Positions 33,097-41,765 of a stretch of 64,000 nucleotides of DNA are shown one piece after another. The stretch is from Geothrix oryzae. Its GTDB lineage: Bacteria > Acidobacteriota > Holophagae > Holophagales > Holophagaceae. The stretch spans positions 1 to 64,000 of the forward strand of contig NZ_AP027079.1 of NCBI RefSeq assembly GCF_030295385.1, written 5' to 3'. The position numbers and the translations under genes are program-made. Each line of letters opens with the position of its first letter. The first letter of the stretch is position 1. The notes beneath the pieces are model-generated. The model was not told the DNA's origin. It did not search any database and saw only the letters and a list, made by a program, of their open reading frames with translations.

Positions 33097-33130
33097 CGGC
33101 TTGCAAAAGGGGGCTTGGCCGTGGGAAGGT

Positions 33131-33326
33131 GGACCTTCCGATGGAGGAGCGATCCCCATCAGTACCGACGGCGAGGGGGATGACCCCGATGACCTGTCGG
33201 GAAAGGGGAGGATCGCCGAAGGGATCGCGAGTCATCGGCGCGGCCCCTGGACGCTGAGGCGAAAGCCCGGCGGCTGTCGTGCCGGTCACCCGGCGCGGAG
33301 GGCCTGAGGAGCGGCGGCGGGAGTCC
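33131..33326 (+). ncRNA. Lysine riboswitch (L-box) leader
   Basis: The spacer before the lysine operon folds like the five-helix lysine aptamer. P1: GGACCTTCCG (33131-33140) with CGGGAGTCC (33318-33326), one bulged C. P2 region: CCCC (33154-33157) with GGGG (33205-33208), with CCGAC/GTCGG (33165-33169, 33196-33200) inside. P3: CGCCGA with TCGGCG (33214-33219, 33235-33240). P4: GCTGAGGC-GAAA-GCCCGGC (33253 on). P5: GCCGG with CCGGC (33281-33285, 33290-33294). Core strings GGAGGAGCGATCCCCATCAGTA and ATCGCCGAAGGGATC resemble the E. coli lysC leader. No covariance search was run. Confidence 0.82.
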
Positions 33327-33372
33327 CTCCCACCGCGTTCCAGATGGCACCGTCGGCCCGCCGAGGTTTCCA
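33315..33372 (+). promoter_or_regulatory. Candidate riboswitch expression platform over the dapE-like start
   Basis: CGGCGGG (33315-33321), which overlaps the 3' strand of P1, is perfectly complementary to CCCGCCG (33357-33363). The latter can instead form TCGG-CCCG-CCGA (33353-33364), which covers the edge of the GAGG ribosome-binding site (33363-33366) before the ATG at 33372. The two pairings are mutually exclusive, which suits translational control. No U-run terminator is seen. Confidence 0.45.
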
Positions 33373-34406
33373 TGAACGCCACCACCGCTGATCTCCGAAG
33401 CTGGCTCACGGGCAGCCTGCGGCAGCTTTGCGACCAGGAGACCACCTCGGGCCGGGAGGACGCGGGCCTGCCGGCGTTGCGGGCCCTGCTGCAGGGGCTC
33501 GGCGCCACGATCCACGAGCAGCCCGTGGCCGAGGGCCGCACCAATGTGCTGGCTGTCTGGGGGCGGCCGAGGGTGCTCTTCTCCACCCACCTGGACACGG
33601 TGCCGCCCTTCCTGCCGCCGAGGCTGGAGGGGGAGGTGCTGCACGGCCGCGGGACCTGCGATGCCAAGGGCCAGATCATGGCCCAGCTCGGCGCCGTGCG
33701 GAGGCTGCTGGCTGAAGGCCGCGAAGGCCTCGCCTGGCTGGGCGTGGTGGGCGAGGAGACCGACAGCGCAGGGGCCACTGCGGCCCTCGGTCTGGCGGAC
33801 CGCCTGCGGGACCTGAGGGTGCTCATCAACGGCGAGCCCACGGAGCTGAAGCTGGCCTCGGGCCAGCGTGGGGCCCAGCACCTCTGCCTCCACTGCGCGG
33901 GCCGCGCCGCCCACAGCGGCAGCCCCGAACTTGGCCACGACGCCACCTGGCCCCTGCTGGACTGGCTCCAGCGGCTGCGCGAACAGCCCCGGCCCGCGGA
34001 TCCCCGGCTGGGTCCCGAGGTGTGGAACCTGGGGTTGCTGCGTGGGGGCGAGGCGCTCAACTCCGTGCCAGCTTCGGCGAGGGCCGACCTGCTGGTGCGC
34101 ACGCTGCCCGGCAGCACCTTTGCCGAGGAGGCCCGCCGCCTGGCGCCGCCCGAAGGCTCCGTGGACCTGCGCCTGGACGAGCCCCCGGATCGCTACCCGG
34201 AGATCCCGGGCTTCGAGCACGCCGCCATGCCCTTCGGCTCGGATGCGCCCACCCTGCGGGCCCTGGTGCCGGATCGCACCGTGGTGCTGGCGGGCCCCGG
34301 CAGCATCCGGGTGGCGCACACGCTGGAGGAATGCCTCGCCCTCGCCGATCTGGAAGCCGGCGTGGATCTGAACCACCGACTGGCCCTGCATTTCCTGGGA
34401 GACTGA
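33372..34406 (+). CDS. M20 metallopeptidase, probable succinyl-diaminopimelate desuccinylase
   Basis: 344 aa. Dinuclear-zinc amidohydrolase motifs: STHLDTVPP (His73, Asp75), GRGTCDAKG (Asp97), GEETDS (Glu128/129), NGEPTE (Glu155) and AAHSGSPE in the lid domain. M20 includes DapE, ArgE and carboxypeptidases; the first place in a lysine operon that contains DapD and a DapC-like enzyme but no other desuccinylase argues for DapE (N-succinyl-LL-DAP to LL-DAP plus succinate). GAGG before the ATG may be masked by the lysine leader. Stop is 3 bases before asd. Confidence 0.8.
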   Translation: MNATTADLRSWLTGSLRQLCDQETTSGREDAGLPALRALLQGLGATIHEQPVAEGRTNVLAVWGRPRVLFSTHLDTVPPFLPPRLEGEVLHGRGTCDAKGQIMAQLGAVRRLLAEGREGLAWLGVVGEETDSAGATAALGLADRLRDLRVLINGEPTELKLASGQRGAQHLCLHCAGRAAHSGSPELGHDATWPLLDWLQRLREQPRPADPRLGPEVWNLGLLRGGEALNSVPASARADLLVRTLPGSTFAEEARRLAPPEGSVDLRLDEPPDRYPEIPGFEHAAMPFGSDAPTLRALVPDRTVVLAGPGSIRVAHTLEECLALADLEAGVDLNHRLALHFLGD

Positions 34407-34409
34407 ACC

Positions 34410-35465
34410 ATGTCCTCGAAAATCCCCGTGACCGTGTTGGGCGCCACTGGCGTCGTGGGCCAGCGCTTCGTTCGGCGCCTGGCGGACCATCCCCTCTTCC
34501 GCGTGGAACACCTCGCAGCCAGCGAGCGCAGCGCCGGCAAGCGCTACCGCGACGCCTGCGCCTGGCGCCTGGACGGCGAGCCCTATGGCGGCCTGGGTGA
34601 CCAGGTGATGGCCGAGGGCACCCCGGAATTCGCCCTGTCGCCGGTGATCTTCAGCGCCCTCGACACGGCGCCGGCCACGGAACTGGAACCGGCCTTCGCC
34701 CGGGCCGGGGCCATGGTGTTCTCCAACGCGGCGGCCTTCCGCATGTCGCCGGAGGTGCCGCTGCTGGTGCCCGAGGTGAACGCCGATCACCTCGGCCTGC
34801 TTGAGGTCCAGCGCCACCACCACGGCTGGAGCGGCGGCATCGTCACCAACGCCAACTGCACGGCCACGGTGCTGGTCATGGCCCTGGCCCCGCTCCAGGA
34901 GGCCTTCGGCGTGGAGGCCGTGCTGATGACCTCCATGCAGGCCATCAGCGGCGCCGGCTACCCCGGCGTGGCCAGCCTGGACATCCTGGGCAACGTGATC
35001 CCCTTCATCCGCAACGAGGAGGCGAAGGTGGAGGAGGAGACGCCCAAGATGCTGGGCCGCTTCACCGGCCGCGAAGTGGAGCTGGCGCCCATGCGGGTGA
35101 GCGCCCTCTGCCACCGGGTGCCCGTCATCGAGGGCCACACGGAGGCCGTCAGCGTGAAGCTGAAAGGCAATCCGTCCCTGGAGGCGGTGCGCGAGGCCTG
35201 GCTGAGCTGGAAGCCCGAACCCCAGCGGCTGAAGCTCTTTTCGGCGCCCCCCGTGCCCGTGCATGTCCACACCCTGGAGGACCGCCCCCAGGTGCGCCGC
35301 GATGTGGAGACGGACGGCGGCATGAGCGTGCATGTGGGCCGCCTGAGGGCCTGCCCCATCCTCGGCGTGAAGTTCGCGCTCCTCGGCCACAACACGGAGC
35401 GCGGGGCGGCGGGCGGCAGCATCCTGAACGCCGAGCTGGCCCATGCGAAGGGGTACCTCCGATGA
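34410..35465 (+). CDS. asd: Aspartate-semialdehyde dehydrogenase
   Basis: Reduces aspartyl-phosphate to aspartate semialdehyde with NADPH, the branch point to lysine, threonine and methionine. 351 aa. Rossmann start PVTVLGATGVVGQRF, catalytic Cys150 in TNANCTATVL, and SALCHRVPVIEGHTEAVSV carrying the substrate His. The length and the NANCTAT form match the archaeal/fungal-like branch rather than the E. coli type. Start 3 bases after the M20 gene; its end overlaps lysC by 4 bases (ATGA). Confidence 0.93.
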   Translation: MSSKIPVTVLGATGVVGQRFVRRLADHPLFRVEHLAASERSAGKRYRDACAWRLDGEPYGGLGDQVMAEGTPEFALSPVIFSALDTAPATELEPAFARAGAMVFSNAAAFRMSPEVPLLVPEVNADHLGLLEVQRHHHGWSGGIVTNANCTATVLVMALAPLQEAFGVEAVLMTSMQAISGAGYPGVASLDILGNVIPFIRNEEAKVEEETPKMLGRFTGREVELAPMRVSALCHRVPVIEGHTEAVSVKLKGNPSLEAVREAWLSWKPEPQRLKLFSAPPVPVHVHTLEDRPQVRRDVETDGGMSVHVGRLRACPILGVKFALLGHNTERGAAGGSILNAELAHAKGYLR

Positions 35466-36802
35466 TCGTCCTCAAGTTCGGCGGCAGCAGCGTGGCCGAT
35501 GCGGCCTGCATGCGCCAGGTGGCGAGCCTGGTGCGGTCGGCCCTGCCCCAGTCGCCCCTGGTGGTGCTGTCCGCCATGGGTAAGACCACCAACGGCCTCT
35601 TCGGGGCGGCGAAGGCCGCGGAAGCGGGCGATCTGGCCGGCGCCATGGACCTGCAGCGGGGCCTCATGGCCGCCCACCGGAAGGCCGCCGCGGAGCTGTT
35701 CGACGGGGCCGTGCCCGAAAGCCTGGATGTGGCCCTGACGGACCTCTTCGGCGAGCTTGAGCTGCTGCTGCGGGGCGTGGCCCTGCTCCGCGAACTGAGC
35801 CCCCGGAGCATGGACGCCATCGCCTCGCTGGGCGAGCGGCTGTCCACGCGCATCTTCGCGGCCTTCGTGGGGGGCGCCTGGGTGGACGCCCGCACGGTTC
35901 TCCGCACGGACGGCGTGTTTGGGGAGGCCGTGCCCCAGCAGGAGGCGATCCGCCCCCTGGCCGCCGACCACCTGAAGCCCCTCCTGGGCCCGGGTCGTGC
36001 CGTGGTGACCCAGGGCTACATCGGCGCCACGGAAGATGGGCTCACCACCACGCTGGGCCGAGGGGGCAGCGACTATTCCGCCGCCCTCTTCGGGGCGGCC
36101 CTGGGTGCGGCGGAGGTACAGATCTGGACGGATGTGGAGGGCGTGCTCACCTGCGACCCCCGCATCGTGCCCGAGGCTCTGCCCATTCCCGAGCTGAGCT
36201 TTGCCGAGGCCGCCGAGCTGGCCGCCTTTGGCGCCAAGGTGCTTCACCCGGCCACCATCCAGCCCGCGGTGGAAGCGCGCATCCCGGTCACGGTGCGCCA
36301 CACGCAGAAACCCGAAGGCCGCTTCACCACGATCTCGGCCGAGGTCCGCACGGGCCGCCCCATCACGGCCCTCGCCAGCCGGGGTCCGGTGACCGTGCTC
36401 ACGGTGAGCAGCTCCCGGATGCTAGCCCAGAGCGGGTTCCTGGCGCGGCTGTTCGAAGTGTTCGGTCGCCGCGGCGTGAGCGTCGACCTCGTGGCCACGG
36501 CCGAGGTGAGCGTCTCCCTCACGGTGGAGGCGGATGTGCCGCTGAAGCCCCTGATCCAGGACCTGTCGGCCTTCGCCACGGTGGAGATCCACGAGGGCCG
36601 GGCCATCATCGCTGCCGTGGGCGAGCGGCTGAAATCTACGCCGGGCCTGGGCGCGCAGCTGTTGTCCTCGCTGGGTGACATCAATGTGGAGATGATCAGC
36701 ATGGGCGCCAACGAGATCAACCTGAGCCTGGTGGTCCGCCAGGACCAGAGCTCCGAGGCCCTGCGCCGCCTGCATCGCGTGCTGGTGGGGGGTGCGGCGT
36801 GA
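35462..36802 (+). CDS. lysC: Aspartate kinase
   Basis: First committed enzyme of the aspartate pathway. 446 aa: amino-acid kinase domain with KFGGSSVAD (5-13), [17 protein letters not shown] and [14 protein letters not shown]-terminal tandem ACT domains (from about 300: [22 protein letters not shown] and [24 protein letters not shown]) for feedback by amino acids. Being in an operon with only lysine genes and behind a lysine-type leader, it is probably the lysine-sensitive isoform. Overlaps asd and dapB by 4 bases each. Confidence 0.95.
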
Positions 36803-37521
36803 CCGTGCCCCGCCTCGGTCTCTTCGGGAAGGGCCGCCTGGGGTCCGCCATCGCCGCGGAAGCCGGTGCGGCCCTGGCCTGGCAGGTGGGCCGCGAAGAG
36901 AGCCCGACCACTCCCGTGGCCGTGGCCATCGATGCCAGCGTGGCGGAGGCTGTCGAGGCCCACCTCGCCTGGGCCCTGGAGACGGGAACCGACCTTGTGA
37001 TCGGCACCACGGGCTGGTCGGTGCCCGACCTCGAAGGTCGCGTGGCGGGGCACATCGGCGTGCTGGCGGCCTCCAACTTCTCGCTCTCGGTCGCCCTCAT
37101 GGCGCGCTTCGCCACGGTGTTGGGGCGCTTCGCCGCCCTCGACCCCGCGCGGGACCCCTTCCTGGTGGAGCGCCACCACCGCCTCAAGGCCGACGCGCCT
37201 TCCGGCACGGCGAAGACCCTGGCTGGGGCCCTCCTGCGGGGCTGCCCCCGCAAGACCGAATGGACGCTCGGCACCCCCGCGCCCCACCAGCTGAGCATCG
37301 GCGTCGTGCGGGCCGGGGCGGAATTCGGTACCCACACGGTGGGGCTGGATGCCCCCGCCGAGCTTCTGGAGCTGACCCACATCGCCCGGTCCCGGGCCCC
37401 CTTCGCCCAGGGCGCCCTGGCGGCGGCCCAGTGGCTCCACGGCCGCAGGGGCGTCTTCACCATGGAAGACCTGGCAGCCGATCTGCTCGACCCCCTCTTC
37501 GCCTTCGGAGGCAAGCCATGA
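36799..37521 (+). CDS. dapB: 4-hydroxy-tetrahydrodipicolinate reductase
   Basis: 240 aa NAD(P)H-dependent reductase forming tetrahydrodipicolinate. N-terminal GLFGKGRLGSAIAAEAG is the nucleotide loop; TDLVIGTTGWSV matches the family VIDFT/TT region; LVERHHRLKADAPSGTAKTLA is the substrate signature (usually E-x-HHxxKxDAPSGTA). GTG start: GTGA overlaps the lysC stop by 4 bases. Ends with ATGA into dapA. Slightly shorter than E. coli DapB (273 aa), as in many bacteria. Confidence 0.93.
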   Translation: MTVPRLGLFGKGRLGSAIAAEAGAALAWQVGREESPTTPVAVAIDASVAEAVEAHLAWALETGTDLVIGTTGWSVPDLEGRVAGHIGVLAASNFSLSVALMARFATVLGRFAALDPARDPFLVERHHRLKADAPSGTAKTLAGALLRGCPRKTEWTLGTPAPHQLSIGVVRAGAEFGTHTVGLDAPAELLELTHIARSRAPFAQGALAAAQWLHGRRGVFTMEDLAADLLDPLFAFGGKP

Positions 37522-38420
37522 CCCTCGAATTCTCTGGACTCGCCGTAGCCCTGGCGACGCCCTTCACCGCCTCGGGCGAGGTGGATCTGCCCGCCTTCCG
37601 CAAGCTGGTGCGGCATGTGGTGGCAGGCGGAGTGGATTTCCTGGTGCCTCTGGGCTCCACGGGGGAAGCGGCCACGATCCTCGAAGCGGAGCGTGATGCC
37701 ATCATCACGGCCTGCCTCGAGGAGAGCAGCGGCCGTCCCGTGGTCGTGGGCACGGGCCACAACGCCACGCGCCAAGCGGCGGCCATGACGAAGCGCGCCC
37801 AGGCCCTGGGAGCCCAGGGCGCCCTGGTGGTGACGCCCTACTACAACAAGCCCACGCCCGCCGGCCTGGTGGCGCATTTCGCCGCGGTGGCCGAGGCGGC
37901 CCCGGGGTTGCCGATCATTGCCTACAATGTGCCGGGCCGCACGGGGCTGAATGTGACGCCCGCCACGCTGGCCCGCCTCTGGGAGAACCCCCAGGTGGTG
38001 GCCGTGAAGGAAAGCAGCGGCAACCTGGCCCAGATCGGGGAGATCGCCCGGCAGCTGCCCAAGGGCAAGCTGCTGCTGTCCGGCGACGACAACCTGGCCC
38101 TGGCCTCCATGGCCGTGGGGGCGTCGGGTCTCATCTCGGTGCTGGGCAATGTGCTGCCCCGGGAGACCGCGGCCATGATCGCCGCGGCCCGACAGGGCAA
38201 CGGGGCCGAGGCCCTGCGCCTGCACCAGCAGCTGCTGCCCCTCATGGACGCCCTCTTCGTGGAGAGCAACCCCATCCCGCTGAAGGCGGTGCTGAAGCTC
38301 CTGGGCCTCTGCGAAGACGGCCTGCGCCTGCCCCTGGTTCCCGCCGAACCCGCCACGCGCACACGCCTGGCCGAAGCCCTCTGCCTCTCGACCGAGGGCA
38401 CCTTCCCTGGAGTGATGTGA
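37518..38420 (+). CDS. dapA: 4-hydroxy-tetrahydrodipicolinate synthase
   Basis: Condenses pyruvate with aspartate semialdehyde, the first lysine-specific step. 300 aa TIM barrel: FLVPLGSTGEAATILEAER, VVTPYYNKPTPAGLVAHF with the catalytic Tyr, IIAYNVPGRTGLNV, and Schiff-base Lys in VVAVKESSGNL. ATG at 37518 overlaps the dapB stop by 4 bases; the reading frame continues upstream only as a shadow. Stop overlaps the dapD start. Confidence 0.96.
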   Translation: MTLEFSGLAVALATPFTASGEVDLPAFRKLVRHVVAGGVDFLVPLGSTGEAATILEAERDAIITACLEESSGRPVVVGTGHNATRQAAAMTKRAQALGAQGALVVTPYYNKPTPAGLVAHFAAVAEAAPGLPIIAYNVPGRTGLNVTPATLARLWENPQVVAVKESSGNLAQIGEIARQLPKGKLLLSGDDNLALASMAVGASGLISVLGNVLPRETAAMIAAARQGNGAEALRLHQQLLPLMDALFVESNPIPLKAVLKLLGLCEDGLRLPLVPAEPATRTRLAEALCLSTEGTFPGVM

Positions 38421-39241
38421 TGGTCGTCGATCTGGATTCCATCCACAGCTTCTTCAACCGCCCGGCGGAAGCCCTGGCGGCGGATCCCGAAGCCCCCGCC
38501 ATGCACCAGGTGCTCCTGGTGGCCCTGGAGACGGGCACCGTCCGGGCCGCCGAGCGCCAGGACGACGGCACCTGGGTGGCCAACGCCTGGGTGAAGCAGG
38601 CCATCCTCTGCGGCTTCCGCCGCACGAATCTGGTGGAGATGCCCGGGCCAGGATTTCCCATGTTCGACAAGACCGCCTATCCGGTCCGCCACTTCGGGCT
38701 GGAGGATGGCGTGCGCCTGGTGCCGGGCGGATCGTCGGTGCGGCGCGGCGCCCACATCGCCCGCAGCGTGGTGCTCATGCCGCCCGCTTATGTGAATGTG
38801 GGGGCTTTCGTGGACGAGGGCACCATGGTGGACAGCCACGCCCTGGTGGGCAGCTGCGCCCAGATCGGCAAGCGGGTGCACCTGTCGGCCGCGGCCCAGA
38901 TCGGCGGCGTGCTGGAGCCCGCCGGCGCCCGGCCGGTGATCGTGGAGGACGACGCCTTCGTGGGCGGGTTGGTGGGGCTCTTCGAGGGCATCGTGGTGCG
39001 CCGGCGGGCGGTGCTGGCCTCGGGTGTGGTCATCACGGGCAGCACCGTGATCTACGACCTGGTGCACGGCCGCGAGCTGCGCCAGGAGGTGCCCGAAGGC
39101 GCCGTGGTGGTGCCGGGCTCCCGACCCGCTTCCGGGGACTACGCCAAGGCCCGCGGACTCCAGGTGTCGGCGCCCTGCATCGTGAAGTACCGCGACGACA
39201 GGACCGATGCGGCCACGGCGCTCGAGCAGGCGTTGCGGTAG
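38420..39241 (+). CDS. dapD: Tetrahydrodipicolinate N-succinyltransferase
   Basis: Succinyl-CoA-dependent acyltransferase that commits the pathway to the succinylase branch. 273 aa, the same length as E. coli DapD. Left-handed beta-helix hexapeptide repeats (GAHIARSVVLMPPAYVNVGAFVDEGTMVDSHALVGSCAQIGKRVHLS) match E. coli nearly position for position; IGGVLEP and the C-terminal RVPAG-like EVPEGAVVVPG are also present. The ATG at 38420 overlaps the dapA TGA by one base; a GTG directly before it is possible. Confidence 0.95.
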   Translation: MVVDLDSIHSFFNRPAEALAADPEAPAMHQVLLVALETGTVRAAERQDDGTWVANAWVKQAILCGFRRTNLVEMPGPGFPMFDKTAYPVRHFGLEDGVRLVPGGSSVRRGAHIARSVVLMPPAYVNVGAFVDEGTMVDSHALVGSCAQIGKRVHLSAAAQIGGVLEPAGARPVIVEDDAFVGGLVGLFEGIVVRRRAVLASGVVITGSTVIYDLVHGRELRQEVPEGAVVVPGSRPASGDYAKARGLQVSAPCIVKYRDDRTDAATALEQALR

Positions 39242-39359: not shown

Positions 39360-40475
39360 ATGAATCCCGCTTCCCGCCTGTCCCTGCTGAAGCCCTCGCC
39401 CATCCGCGCCATCACGGACGGCACGCCGCCCGGGGCCATCCCCCTGGGGCTGGGCGAACCCACCTGGAACCTGCCGGAAGTGGCCCGCAAGGCGCTGCTG
39501 CGCGACCCCGGCCCCTGCGCCTATGTGCCCCATGTGGGCCTGCTGGAGCTGAGGAAGGCCGTGGCCGCCTTCCATGGCGCCCAGGTGGAGGAGGTGCTCA
39601 TCACCACCGGCTCCCAGGGGGCGCTCTTCTCGCTGTTCCAGGCCTGGGTGGAGCCCGGCACGAAGGTGCTCATGCCCGACCCCGGCTTCGTGGCCTATCC
39701 GGCCCTGGCCCGCATGGCGGGCGCCGAGCCCGTGACCTACCCGCTGTCCAAGGACCGGTTCCGGCTCGATGCCGAGGCCCTCATCCGGGTGCTGGACGCC
39801 ACGCCGGAGGCCTCGGCCGTGATCCTCAACCTGCCCTCCAACCCCACGGGCGGCGGGGGCGACCTCGCGGCCCTCAAGCGCGTGGCCGAGGCCTGCGTGG
39901 CCCGGGGCATCCTGCTCATCTCCGACGAGGTCTACCGCGACCTGCACTTCGGCGTGCGGGCGCCGAGCCTGCGCGATGTCACCGATCGCGGCGTGGTGAC
40001 CAGCTCCGTGAGCAAGGGCTGGGGCGCGCCGGGTCTGCGCGTGGGCTGGGCCGTGGGCGATCCCGCCTGGCTCACCCCTGCCCGCGTGGTCCATGGCTAC
40101 GCGGTCACCGGCACGGCCACGCCGGCCCAGTGGGCGGCCCTGGCGCTCCTCGAACACTCGGACGCCATCCTGGCCGAGGCCCGCGCCGCCGTGCAACTGC
40201 GGTGGGAAGCCCTGGCCTCGGCCCTGCGCGAAGACCTGGGCCACACTGTGACGCCCCCCGACGGCACCTTCTACCACTTCATGGCGCTGCCGGACTCCGC
40301 CCATACCGATCCTCTGGCCTTCTGCCTGAAGCTGCGGGACGAGGCCAAGGTGGTGCTCATCCCAGGCCTTGCCTTCGGTGAAGGCGGCCGCGGCCACGCC
40401 CGCCTCAGCTTCGCCGCCACCCCCGAGCAGCTGAGGGAAGGCGTGCGGCGGCTGGCGCCGTACTGGGAAAAGTGA
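39360..40475 (+). CDS. Class I aminotransferase, probable succinyl-diaminopimelate aminotransferase (DapC-like)
   Basis: 371 aa fold-type I PLP enzyme. GLGEPTWNLPE and AYVPHVGLLELRKAVA open the substrate side; NLPSNPTGG, ISDEVYRDLHF and the Schiff-base Lys in SSVSKGWGAPGLRVGW are the standard cofactor contacts; ARLSFA carries the carboxylate-binding Arg. Family-level sequence cannot separate DapC from other aminotransferases; the role is inferred because it fills the one missing step between DapD and DapE in this operon. A 118-base spacer with a repeat-like hairpin precedes it. Confidence 0.82.
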   Translation: MNPASRLSLLKPSPIRAITDGTPPGAIPLGLGEPTWNLPEVARKALLRDPGPCAYVPHVGLLELRKAVAAFHGAQVEEVLITTGSQGALFSLFQAWVEPGTKVLMPDPGFVAYPALARMAGAEPVTYPLSKDRFRLDAEALIRVLDATPEASAVILNLPSNPTGGGGDLAALKRVAEACVARGILLISDEVYRDLHFGVRAPSLRDVTDRGVVTSSVSKGWGAPGLRVGWAVGDPAWLTPARVVHGYAVTGTATPAQWAALALLEHSDAILAEARAAVQLRWEALASALREDLGHTVTPPDGTFYHFMALPDSAHTDPLAFCLKLRDEAKVVLIPGLAFGEGGRGHARLSFAATPEQLREGVRRLAPYWEK

Positions 40476-40616: not shown

Positions 40617-41765
40617 ATGCTTTTCGCTTTTGACGATGCCCAATGCCGCTCCCTGGCCGAGACCCACGGCACGCCCTGCTTTGCCTACTCCGGCGAGGCC
40701 GCGACGGAGCAATTCACCGCTCTGCGCGCGGTGCTGCCCTCCCGGGTGCGCCTCGCCTACGCGGTGAAGGCGAACCCGCATCCGGGGTTGTTGGCGCGCT
40801 TCGCCGCCCTGGGCGCCAGCTTCGACTGCGCCTCCATCGGCGAGCTCGAGCGCGTGGAGGCCTTGAAGCTGCCCCCGGGCCGCACCTTCTTCGCGGGGCC
40901 CGGGAAGCGGGAGACCGAGCTGCTCCGGGCCCTGGTCATGGGCGTACGGGTGCAGGCGGAAGGCTTCGAGGACCTGGCGCGTCTCGACGCGATGGCGGAT
41001 CGCGAAGTGGCCGTGAACTTGCGGGTGCACCCGGCCTTCGACATCGATGAGGGCAACCGCATCATCGGCGGCAGCGGACCTTCCGCGTTCGGTGTGGACG
41101 AGGAGGAGGTCCCGGCCCTGCTTCAGAAGGCCGCGCAGCTCCGCCATGTCCGCATCCGGGGCCTGCATGTCTTCGCCGCCAGCAACCAGCGGGACGCGGC
41201 CAAGCTGCGGACCATCCACGGCGCCGTGCTGAACCTGGCGAAGCACTTGCACGAAGCCCACGGCATGACCTTCGAGCAGATCGACCTCGGCGGTGGACTG
41301 GGCGTGCCCTACGCGCCGGACGAAGCCCCGCTTGATCTGAGAACGTTTGGACAAGGACTGTCCGGACTCCTGGCGGAACACGCCTGGTTCACGGACGAGC
41401 TGATCCTCGAGCCGGGCCGCTTCCTGGCGGGCCCCTGTGGGACCTACCTGGCCCGCGTGGTGCGGATCAAGGAAAGCCGCGGCACCCGCTTCGCCATCCT
41501 GGAGGGCGGCATCAACCACCTGATCCGGCCCCTCCTCACGGGCCAGCCCTTCCCCGTGAGGGCCGTGGGCAAGGGGCACGGGACCCTGTCCTACACGCTG
41601 GCCGGCCCCCTCTGCACCAGCCTCGACCGCCTGGGCGAAGTGCGCCTGCCGGAGTTGGCCCCGGGGGATCTACTGGCCTTCGGCACCACCGGCGCCTACG
41701 GCTTGAATGAGGGGATGACCCACTTCCTGAGCCACCCCGTGCCGCCCGAAGTGTGGGTGGAGTAA
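40617..41765 (+). CDS. lysA: Diaminopimelate decarboxylase
   Basis: Last step of lysine synthesis (meso-DAP to lysine). 382 aa alanine-racemase-fold III PLP enzyme. Schiff-base Lys51 in AYAVKANPHP; ASFDCASIGELE; HVFAASN; IDLGGGLGVPY for the phosphate; LEPGRFLAGPCG; and AYGLNEGM near the C-terminus in place of the more common GAYGFSMAS, which fits divergent members such as pyoverdine/siderophore-type decarboxylases too. Operon context favours LysA. Shortest family lengths are about 380, so it is complete. Confidence 0.82.
   Translation: MLFAFDDAQCRSLAETHGTPCFAYSGEAATEQFTALRAVLPSRVRLAYAVKANPHPGLLARFAALGASFDCASIGELERVEALKLPPGRTFFAGPGKRETELLRALVMGVRVQAEGFEDLARLDAMADREVAVNLRVHPAFDIDEGNRIIGGSGPSAFGVDEEEVPALLQKAAQLRHVRIRGLHVFAASNQRDAAKLRTIHGAVLNLAKHLHEAHGMTFEQIDLGGGLGVPYAPDEAPLDLRTFGQGLSGLLAEHAWFTDELILEPGRFLAGPCGTYLARVVRIKESRGTRFAILEGGINHLIRPLLTGQPFPVRAVGKGHGTLSYTLAGPLCTSLDRLGEVRLPELAPGDLLAFGTTGAYGLNEGMTHFLSHPVPPEVWVE

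Follow-up and report, generated by a model that had tools for sequence, protein, structure and literature searches.

The window analysed here, a stretch of 64,000 nucleotides from the soil bacterium Geothrix oryzae (Holophagaceae, Acidobacteriota), contains a group of lysine biosynthesis genes preceded by a lysine riboswitch aptamer. The genes follow the aptamer in the order dapE-like, asd, lysC, dapB, dapA, dapD, aminotransferase and lysA, and their assignments are as follows.

33372–34406, + strand: dapE-like M20 metallopeptidase, the first gene (PF01546 and PF07687 above cut-off)
34410–35465, + strand: asd, aspartate-semialdehyde dehydrogenase (TIGR00978, 403 bits, above cut-off)
35462–36802, + strand: lysC, lysine-sensitive aspartokinase III type (NF006570, 457 bits, cut-off 455)
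36799–37521, + strand: dapB (TIGR00036, 101.5 bits, below the cut-off of 122; PF05173 above cut-off)
37518–38420, + strand: dapA (TIGR00674, 294.6 bits, above cut-off)
38417–39241, + strand: dapD, tetrahydrodipicolinate N-succinyltransferase (NF008808, 292.8 bits, cut-off 204)
39360–40475, + strand: class I/II aminotransferase, presumed succinyl-DAP aminotransferase (PF00155; no equivalog above cut-off)
40617–41765, + strand: lysA, DAP decarboxylase type (TIGR01048, 245.7 bits, below the cut-off of 297.9; the best lysA match in the genome)

An earlier sequence-only reading had described a full and unusually long succinylase-route operon under a lysine riboswitch. The DapD match bears out the succinylase type, but the operon is not full, as a dapF-like gene lies outside it (91270–91941 of the genome) and four products, namely those of the dapE-like gene, dapB, the aminotransferase gene and lysA, score below the curated NCBIfam cut-offs while containing the expected Pfam domains. 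Nor is its length unusual, since eight-gene lysine-riboswitch operons were already listed for Thermotogae and Macrococcus in a 2017 survey of complete genomes (PMC5584792). The product of the first gene falls below all DapE and ArgE NCBIfam cut-offs (best DapE model 97 bits versus 289), and its presumed identity as DapE rests on the Pfam M20 domains and the gene context. Its closest relatives are from Geothrix species (81–87% identity), and it groups with Planctomycetota proteins in a separate DapE subgroup that has no name of its own. At 240 aa, DapB is short, and its TIGR00036 match begins at model position 71.

The first six genes are tightly packed, with a gap of 3 bases between the dapE-like gene and asd and overlaps of 4 bases at each of asd/lysC, lysC/dapB, dapB/dapA and dapA/dapD. 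This six-gene block, with its adjacent or overlapping starts, is found again in relatives. The aminotransferase gene and lysA are preceded by gaps of 118 and 141 bases, respectively, and lysA lies 0.65–1.9 kb further downstream in some relatives (distances extrapolated from tblastn). Two more aspartokinase genes map elsewhere, at 318.5 and 2768.7 kb of the genome, so that the riboswitch would govern the lysine-type enzyme only.

The leader extends from the stop codon of a serine-hydrolase gene (33096) to the ATG at 33372. Given this start, which homologues indicate, the 275-base non-coding spacer reported earlier corresponds exactly to 33097–33371. It contains the following elements.

33101–33130, + strand: weak candidate promoter seen by eye (TTGCAA, 18 bases, GAAGGT), with a predicted transcript start at about 33135
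33134–33313, + strand: lysine riboswitch aptamer, RF00168 (74 bits, E 1.9e-17, full length; the only genome copy)
33138–33144, + strand: CCGATGG, P1 5' strand and proposed anti-P1 5' arm, partner 33350–33356 (RNAalifold consensus; 99.6% of cells paired, 34 sequences)
33149–33216, + strand: P2 arm, including P2b at 33165–33200 (Rfam alignment; compensatory changes)
33186–33192, + strand: L2 loop CCGATGA, complement of L3 at 33232–33238 (82% of cells paired)
33220–33248, + strand: P3 arm, with L3 TCATCGG at 33232–33238 (Rfam alignment; 34-sequence pairing test)
33249–33275, + strand: P4 arm (Rfam alignment; 34-sequence pairing test)
33277–33298, + strand: P5 arm (100% of cells paired; 3 pairs changed on both sides)
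33303–33308, + strand: P1 3' strand; G-C, G-C and C-G pairs form around three mismatches (GAU/UGA), which are present in 33 of 34 sequences
33314–33336, + strand: G+C-rich spacer hairpin without a U-tract (98% of cells paired; 3 of 7 pairs changed on both sides)
33349–33356, + strand: ACCGTCGG, sequestor anti-Shine-Dalgarno arm, of which 33350–33356 doubles as the anti-P1 3' arm (RNAalifold and pairing tests)
33361–33367, + strand: CCGAGGT, sequestor 3' arm containing the Shine-Dalgarno GAGG at 33363–33366 (94% of cells paired with 33349–33356)

The candidate promoter was not called by a consensus scan of 33101–33130; its TTGC is found at the same place in many relatives.

The aptamer is the sole above-threshold match in a cmscan of the whole window, scoring 74.0 bits (gathering score 30), and it spans model positions 1–182, the full length of RF00168. 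Of the 49 model positions that are conserved most strongly, 43 match, and the aptamer occurs once in the 3.27 Mb genome. This confirms the observation of a lysine riboswitch in the spacer, and the span first proposed, 33131–33326, lies within a few bases of the match; its end is acceptable for the aptamer but not for the functional element, which continues through an expression platform (33314–33371) to the start codon. Lysine and lysine-precursor genes lie downstream, and the aptamer would be expected to bind L-lysine.

Conservation of the structure was assessed in an alignment of 34 Holophagaceae leaders, in which the aptamer, the spacer hairpin and the sequestor were tested together. Sixteen pairs are changed on both sides, compared with a mean of 6.3 in shuffled alignments, none of 500 of which reached 16, and slid versions of the structure gave at most 5. 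The compensatory changes that the sequence-only reading had named as a check on its five helices are thus present in relatives; they lie in P2–P5 and in the post-aptamer hairpin, and do not extend to P1, which in the Rfam register is mismatched at three of its six pairs both in the window and in 33 of the 34 sequences. The P1 pairs that hold are the two inner G-C pairs (GG/CC), which never vary, and one outer pair. A kissing interaction between L2 and L3 is typical of lysine riboswitch aptamers. Here the two loops are complementary in 82% of cells compared with 9–71% in slid controls, and their covariation is not above that of shuffled alignments. Overall, the element resembles the L-box family (RF00168) in its full-length match, five-helix junction, putative kissing-loop complement and position before lysine biosynthesis genes, and differs from it in the conserved 3x3 mismatch of P1 and in a host lineage that is sparsely reported.

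The mismatches in P1 might suggest that the aptamer has degenerated, with lysine binding lost and the leader retained as a fixed RNA structure, and the case of one Geothrix metagenome-assembled genome (L061), which retains the operon with most of the aptamer gone, would lead one in the same direction. This is very improbable, because the window aptamer retains 43 of 49 conserved positions, the other helices still co-vary, and the aptamer scores above cut-off in 59 of the 93 genomes of the class. In L061 (9940–10001) the operon is intact, P1 and the P2 5' arm are joined straight to the Shine-Dalgarno hairpin, and no RF00168 match is present in the genome; the missing part may have been lost naturally, or short repeats may have caused the assembly to collapse there.

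Downstream of the aptamer, ACC(G)UCGG-CCCG-CCGAGGU forms a sequestor hairpin over the Shine-Dalgarno sequence, whose GAGG ends 5 bases 5' of the ATG, and the hairpin is paired in 94% of cells across the 34 sequences. The unconstrained RNAalifold consensus yields a different arrangement, in which CCGAUGG (33138–33144) pairs with CCGUCGG (33350–33356) and encloses the aptamer core and the spacer hairpin. This anti-P1 helix is paired in 99.6% of cells, compared with 14–57% in slid controls, and because it uses one strand of P1 and one strand of the Shine-Dalgarno hairpin, it should exclude both. Few parts of the leader are as well conserved as the sequestor and anti-P1 elements.

These elements are most simply read as a translational OFF switch working through anti-P1. 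We consider it probable that an ample supply of lysine causes the riboswitch to shut down its operon, most likely at the level of translation. In the absence of lysine, CCGAUGG would pair with CCGUCGG, so that anti-P1 would occupy the arm that otherwise masks the Shine-Dalgarno sequence, and the dapE-like gene, and with it the closely coupled asd, lysC, dapB, dapA and dapD, would be translated. Upon lysine binding, P1 would close and free CCGUCGG, and ACC(G)UCGG would then pair with CCGAGGU and hide the ribosome-binding site. With its three conserved mismatches, P1 would be weak enough to lose to anti-P1 unless held by lysine. The P1 strand CCGAUGG resembles the ribosome-site strand CCGAGG, so one anti-Shine-Dalgarno arm could accept either partner. 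We infer the direction of the switch, its action on translation and the coupling of the genes from sequence. The earlier proposal that lysine represses all eight genes would, if control is translational, apply directly to the first gene and to the five coupled to it but not to the last two, which lie beyond the larger gaps.

The proposed arrangement is similar to that of the translational anti-P1 switch known from E. coli, where it was described for thiC and predicted for lysC, in that an alternative helix built on P1 sequence excludes both P1 and a stem sequestering the ribosome-binding site (PMC5234074). There are also differences, as thiC responds to another ligand, the sequences of both E. 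coli leaders differ from that of the window, the window helix is known from comparative sequence only, and the window switch heads a dapE-led operon.

Because anti-P1 scarcely varies within the genus, its conservation alone is no proof. In Holophagaceae its covariation does not exceed chance, and own arms do not out-pair permuted arms (p 0.24). A duplexfold test proved too permissive in these G+C-rich leaders, and a gapless search was used instead. In this search, anti-P1 complementarity gave p 0.08 for the window leader by itself, a combined shuffle p of 0.02 for eight Holophagaceae leaders and 7.7e-4 after five Planctomycetota leaders were added; for 13 Planctomycetota leaders, p was 5e-5 versus 0.78 for a control segment, and for other Acidobacteriota the combined p was 0.76. 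Several Planctomycetota with the same operon and riboswitch carry compensated versions of the helix. Three of these differ in sequence: 13 bp in L146 (GCACAACCGCUGG/CCGGCGGUUGUGU), 10 bp in L151 (CCACCGCUGG/CCGGCGGUGG) and 9 bp in L152 (GACCGCUGG/CCGGCGGUC). The divergent leader L067 also has a 9 bp anti-P1. Among 27 sequences, with arms picked by eye, own arms out-pair permuted arms (p 1e-4); from this test and the gapless search, covariation of anti-P1 is seen only across phyla and within Planctomycetota. A good anti-P1 was not found in leaders L008 and L064 or in four Planctomycetota loci (L143, L144, L145 and L148), and L121 has a short helix only.

The energy model, which lacks tertiary contacts and co-transcriptional folding and does not settle the balance between the two helices, gives anti-P1 an advantage of 7.6 ± 2.8 kcal/mol over the combination of P1 and sequestor, possibly more than lysine binding alone repays; a fold that has the sequestor and lacks P1 comes close to anti-P1 in stability. 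That anti-P1 is the better helix and that the P1 strand is common to both could also be accommodated by an ON switch, in which anti-P1 is the extended P1 of the lysine-bound state and lysine exposes the ribosome-binding site. Such a switch is hardly credible, however: it would be physiologically senseless for lysine to activate the pathway that makes it, and the lysine riboswitches known 5' of biosynthesis genes repress (PMC5584792, PMC5234074).

Control might instead be transcriptional, with lysine causing termination in the leader through the spacer hairpin (33314–33336) or through Rho after a block in translation. We regard this as unlikely, since the hairpin is followed by GUUCC and not by a U-tract, the terminator scan of the + strand found no intrinsic terminator in the leader, and the sequestor and anti-P1 would be left without a role despite their strong conservation. 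Nevertheless, the spacer hairpin is itself conserved with compensatory changes, E. coli riboswitches join masking of the ribosome-binding site with Rho or RNase E (PMC5234074), and other Acidobacteriota carrying the lysine aptamer have what appear by eye to be terminators. In the latter, a terminator-like stem and U-run follow the riboswitches before lysC (L002, L004, L006 and L013) and one before a non-lysC gene (L003). The Holophagaceae platform would thus differ in kind from most in the phylum. Rho action following a translational block may still occur.

A T-box reading of GGUGGCACC near the start codon of some relatives (L062, L064 and L065) was rejected, as there is no space for Stem I, the bulge U varies in Geothrix and cmscan returned no T-box match.

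Besides most Geothrix genomes, the 59 genomes of the class that carry the riboswitch include members of most of the remaining Holophagaceae genera and one genome out of seven from a different family, and a scan of the phylum found the riboswitch in 31 of 297 genomes. Among 26 genomes searched via loci, mostly Planctomycetota, 13 contain RF00168; in all 13 the aptamer precedes a dapE relative, in most cases with lysC or asd next. Planctomycetota lysine riboswitches 5' of dapE-headed operons were observed at L075, L081, L083, L084, L088 and L143–L155. The 2017 survey lists one acidobacterial lysine riboswitch, that of the Ca. Solibacter usitatus asd-lysC operon, and no Planctomycetota in its operon list (PMC5584792). 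A literature search, with subscription papers outside its scope, found no report of a Geothrix lysine riboswitch and none centred on Planctomycetota. The window operon shares with the Thermotogae and Macrococcus operons the placement of as many as eight lysine genes behind a single aptamer, and with Ca. Solibacter an acidobacterial lysine riboswitch; it differs from the surveyed operons in its order, dapE-asd-lysC-dapB-dapA-dapD-aminotransferase-lysA, and in its putative translational platform (PMC5584792).

A midpoint-rooted DapE tree nests the Holophagaceae within the Planctomycetota and separates them from other Acidobacteriota (f66) and from Bacteroidota; the sample of relatives started from the DapE of the window and is biased towards it. 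The aptamer tree, which is short and not settled, likewise joins Holophagaceae and Planctomycetota (95/94 support) apart from other Acidobacteriota. The agreement of the two trees suggests, as the likeliest reading of this distribution, that operon and riboswitch were transferred horizontally together between lineages. A fuller proposal is put forward tentatively: a translational riboswitch, in which the P1 strand mimics the ribosome-site strand and both share one anti-Shine-Dalgarno arm, would have travelled with its dapE-headed operon between Planctomycetota and Holophagaceae, and would now be the common lysine control in the two groups.

The sensor class and the kind of switch are both already known. 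What is added here is a probable mechanism, a platform masking the ribosome-binding site that, together with the genes, would be common to Holophagaceae and the distant Planctomycetota. In Geothrix and the rest of its family, as well as in a number of Planctomycetota missing from the 2017 survey, lysine synthesis appears to be under the standing control of lysine riboswitches. In addition, these leaders form a natural series, with a constant aptamer and a changing switch part, that should be useful for studying the evolution of expression platforms.

Other Holophagaceae have a split operon with the riboswitch before lysC or asd (L114 and L131; L117 and L132; L008, L111–L113 and L115; L133), and in one genus of this set (g168) it occurs twice in one genome, before dapE and before lysC. 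In L008, an open reading frame of about 18 codons lies roughly 50–120 bases 3' of the aptamer, its stop overlapping the lysC start; it may encode a coupled leader peptide or be what is left of a first gene since lost.
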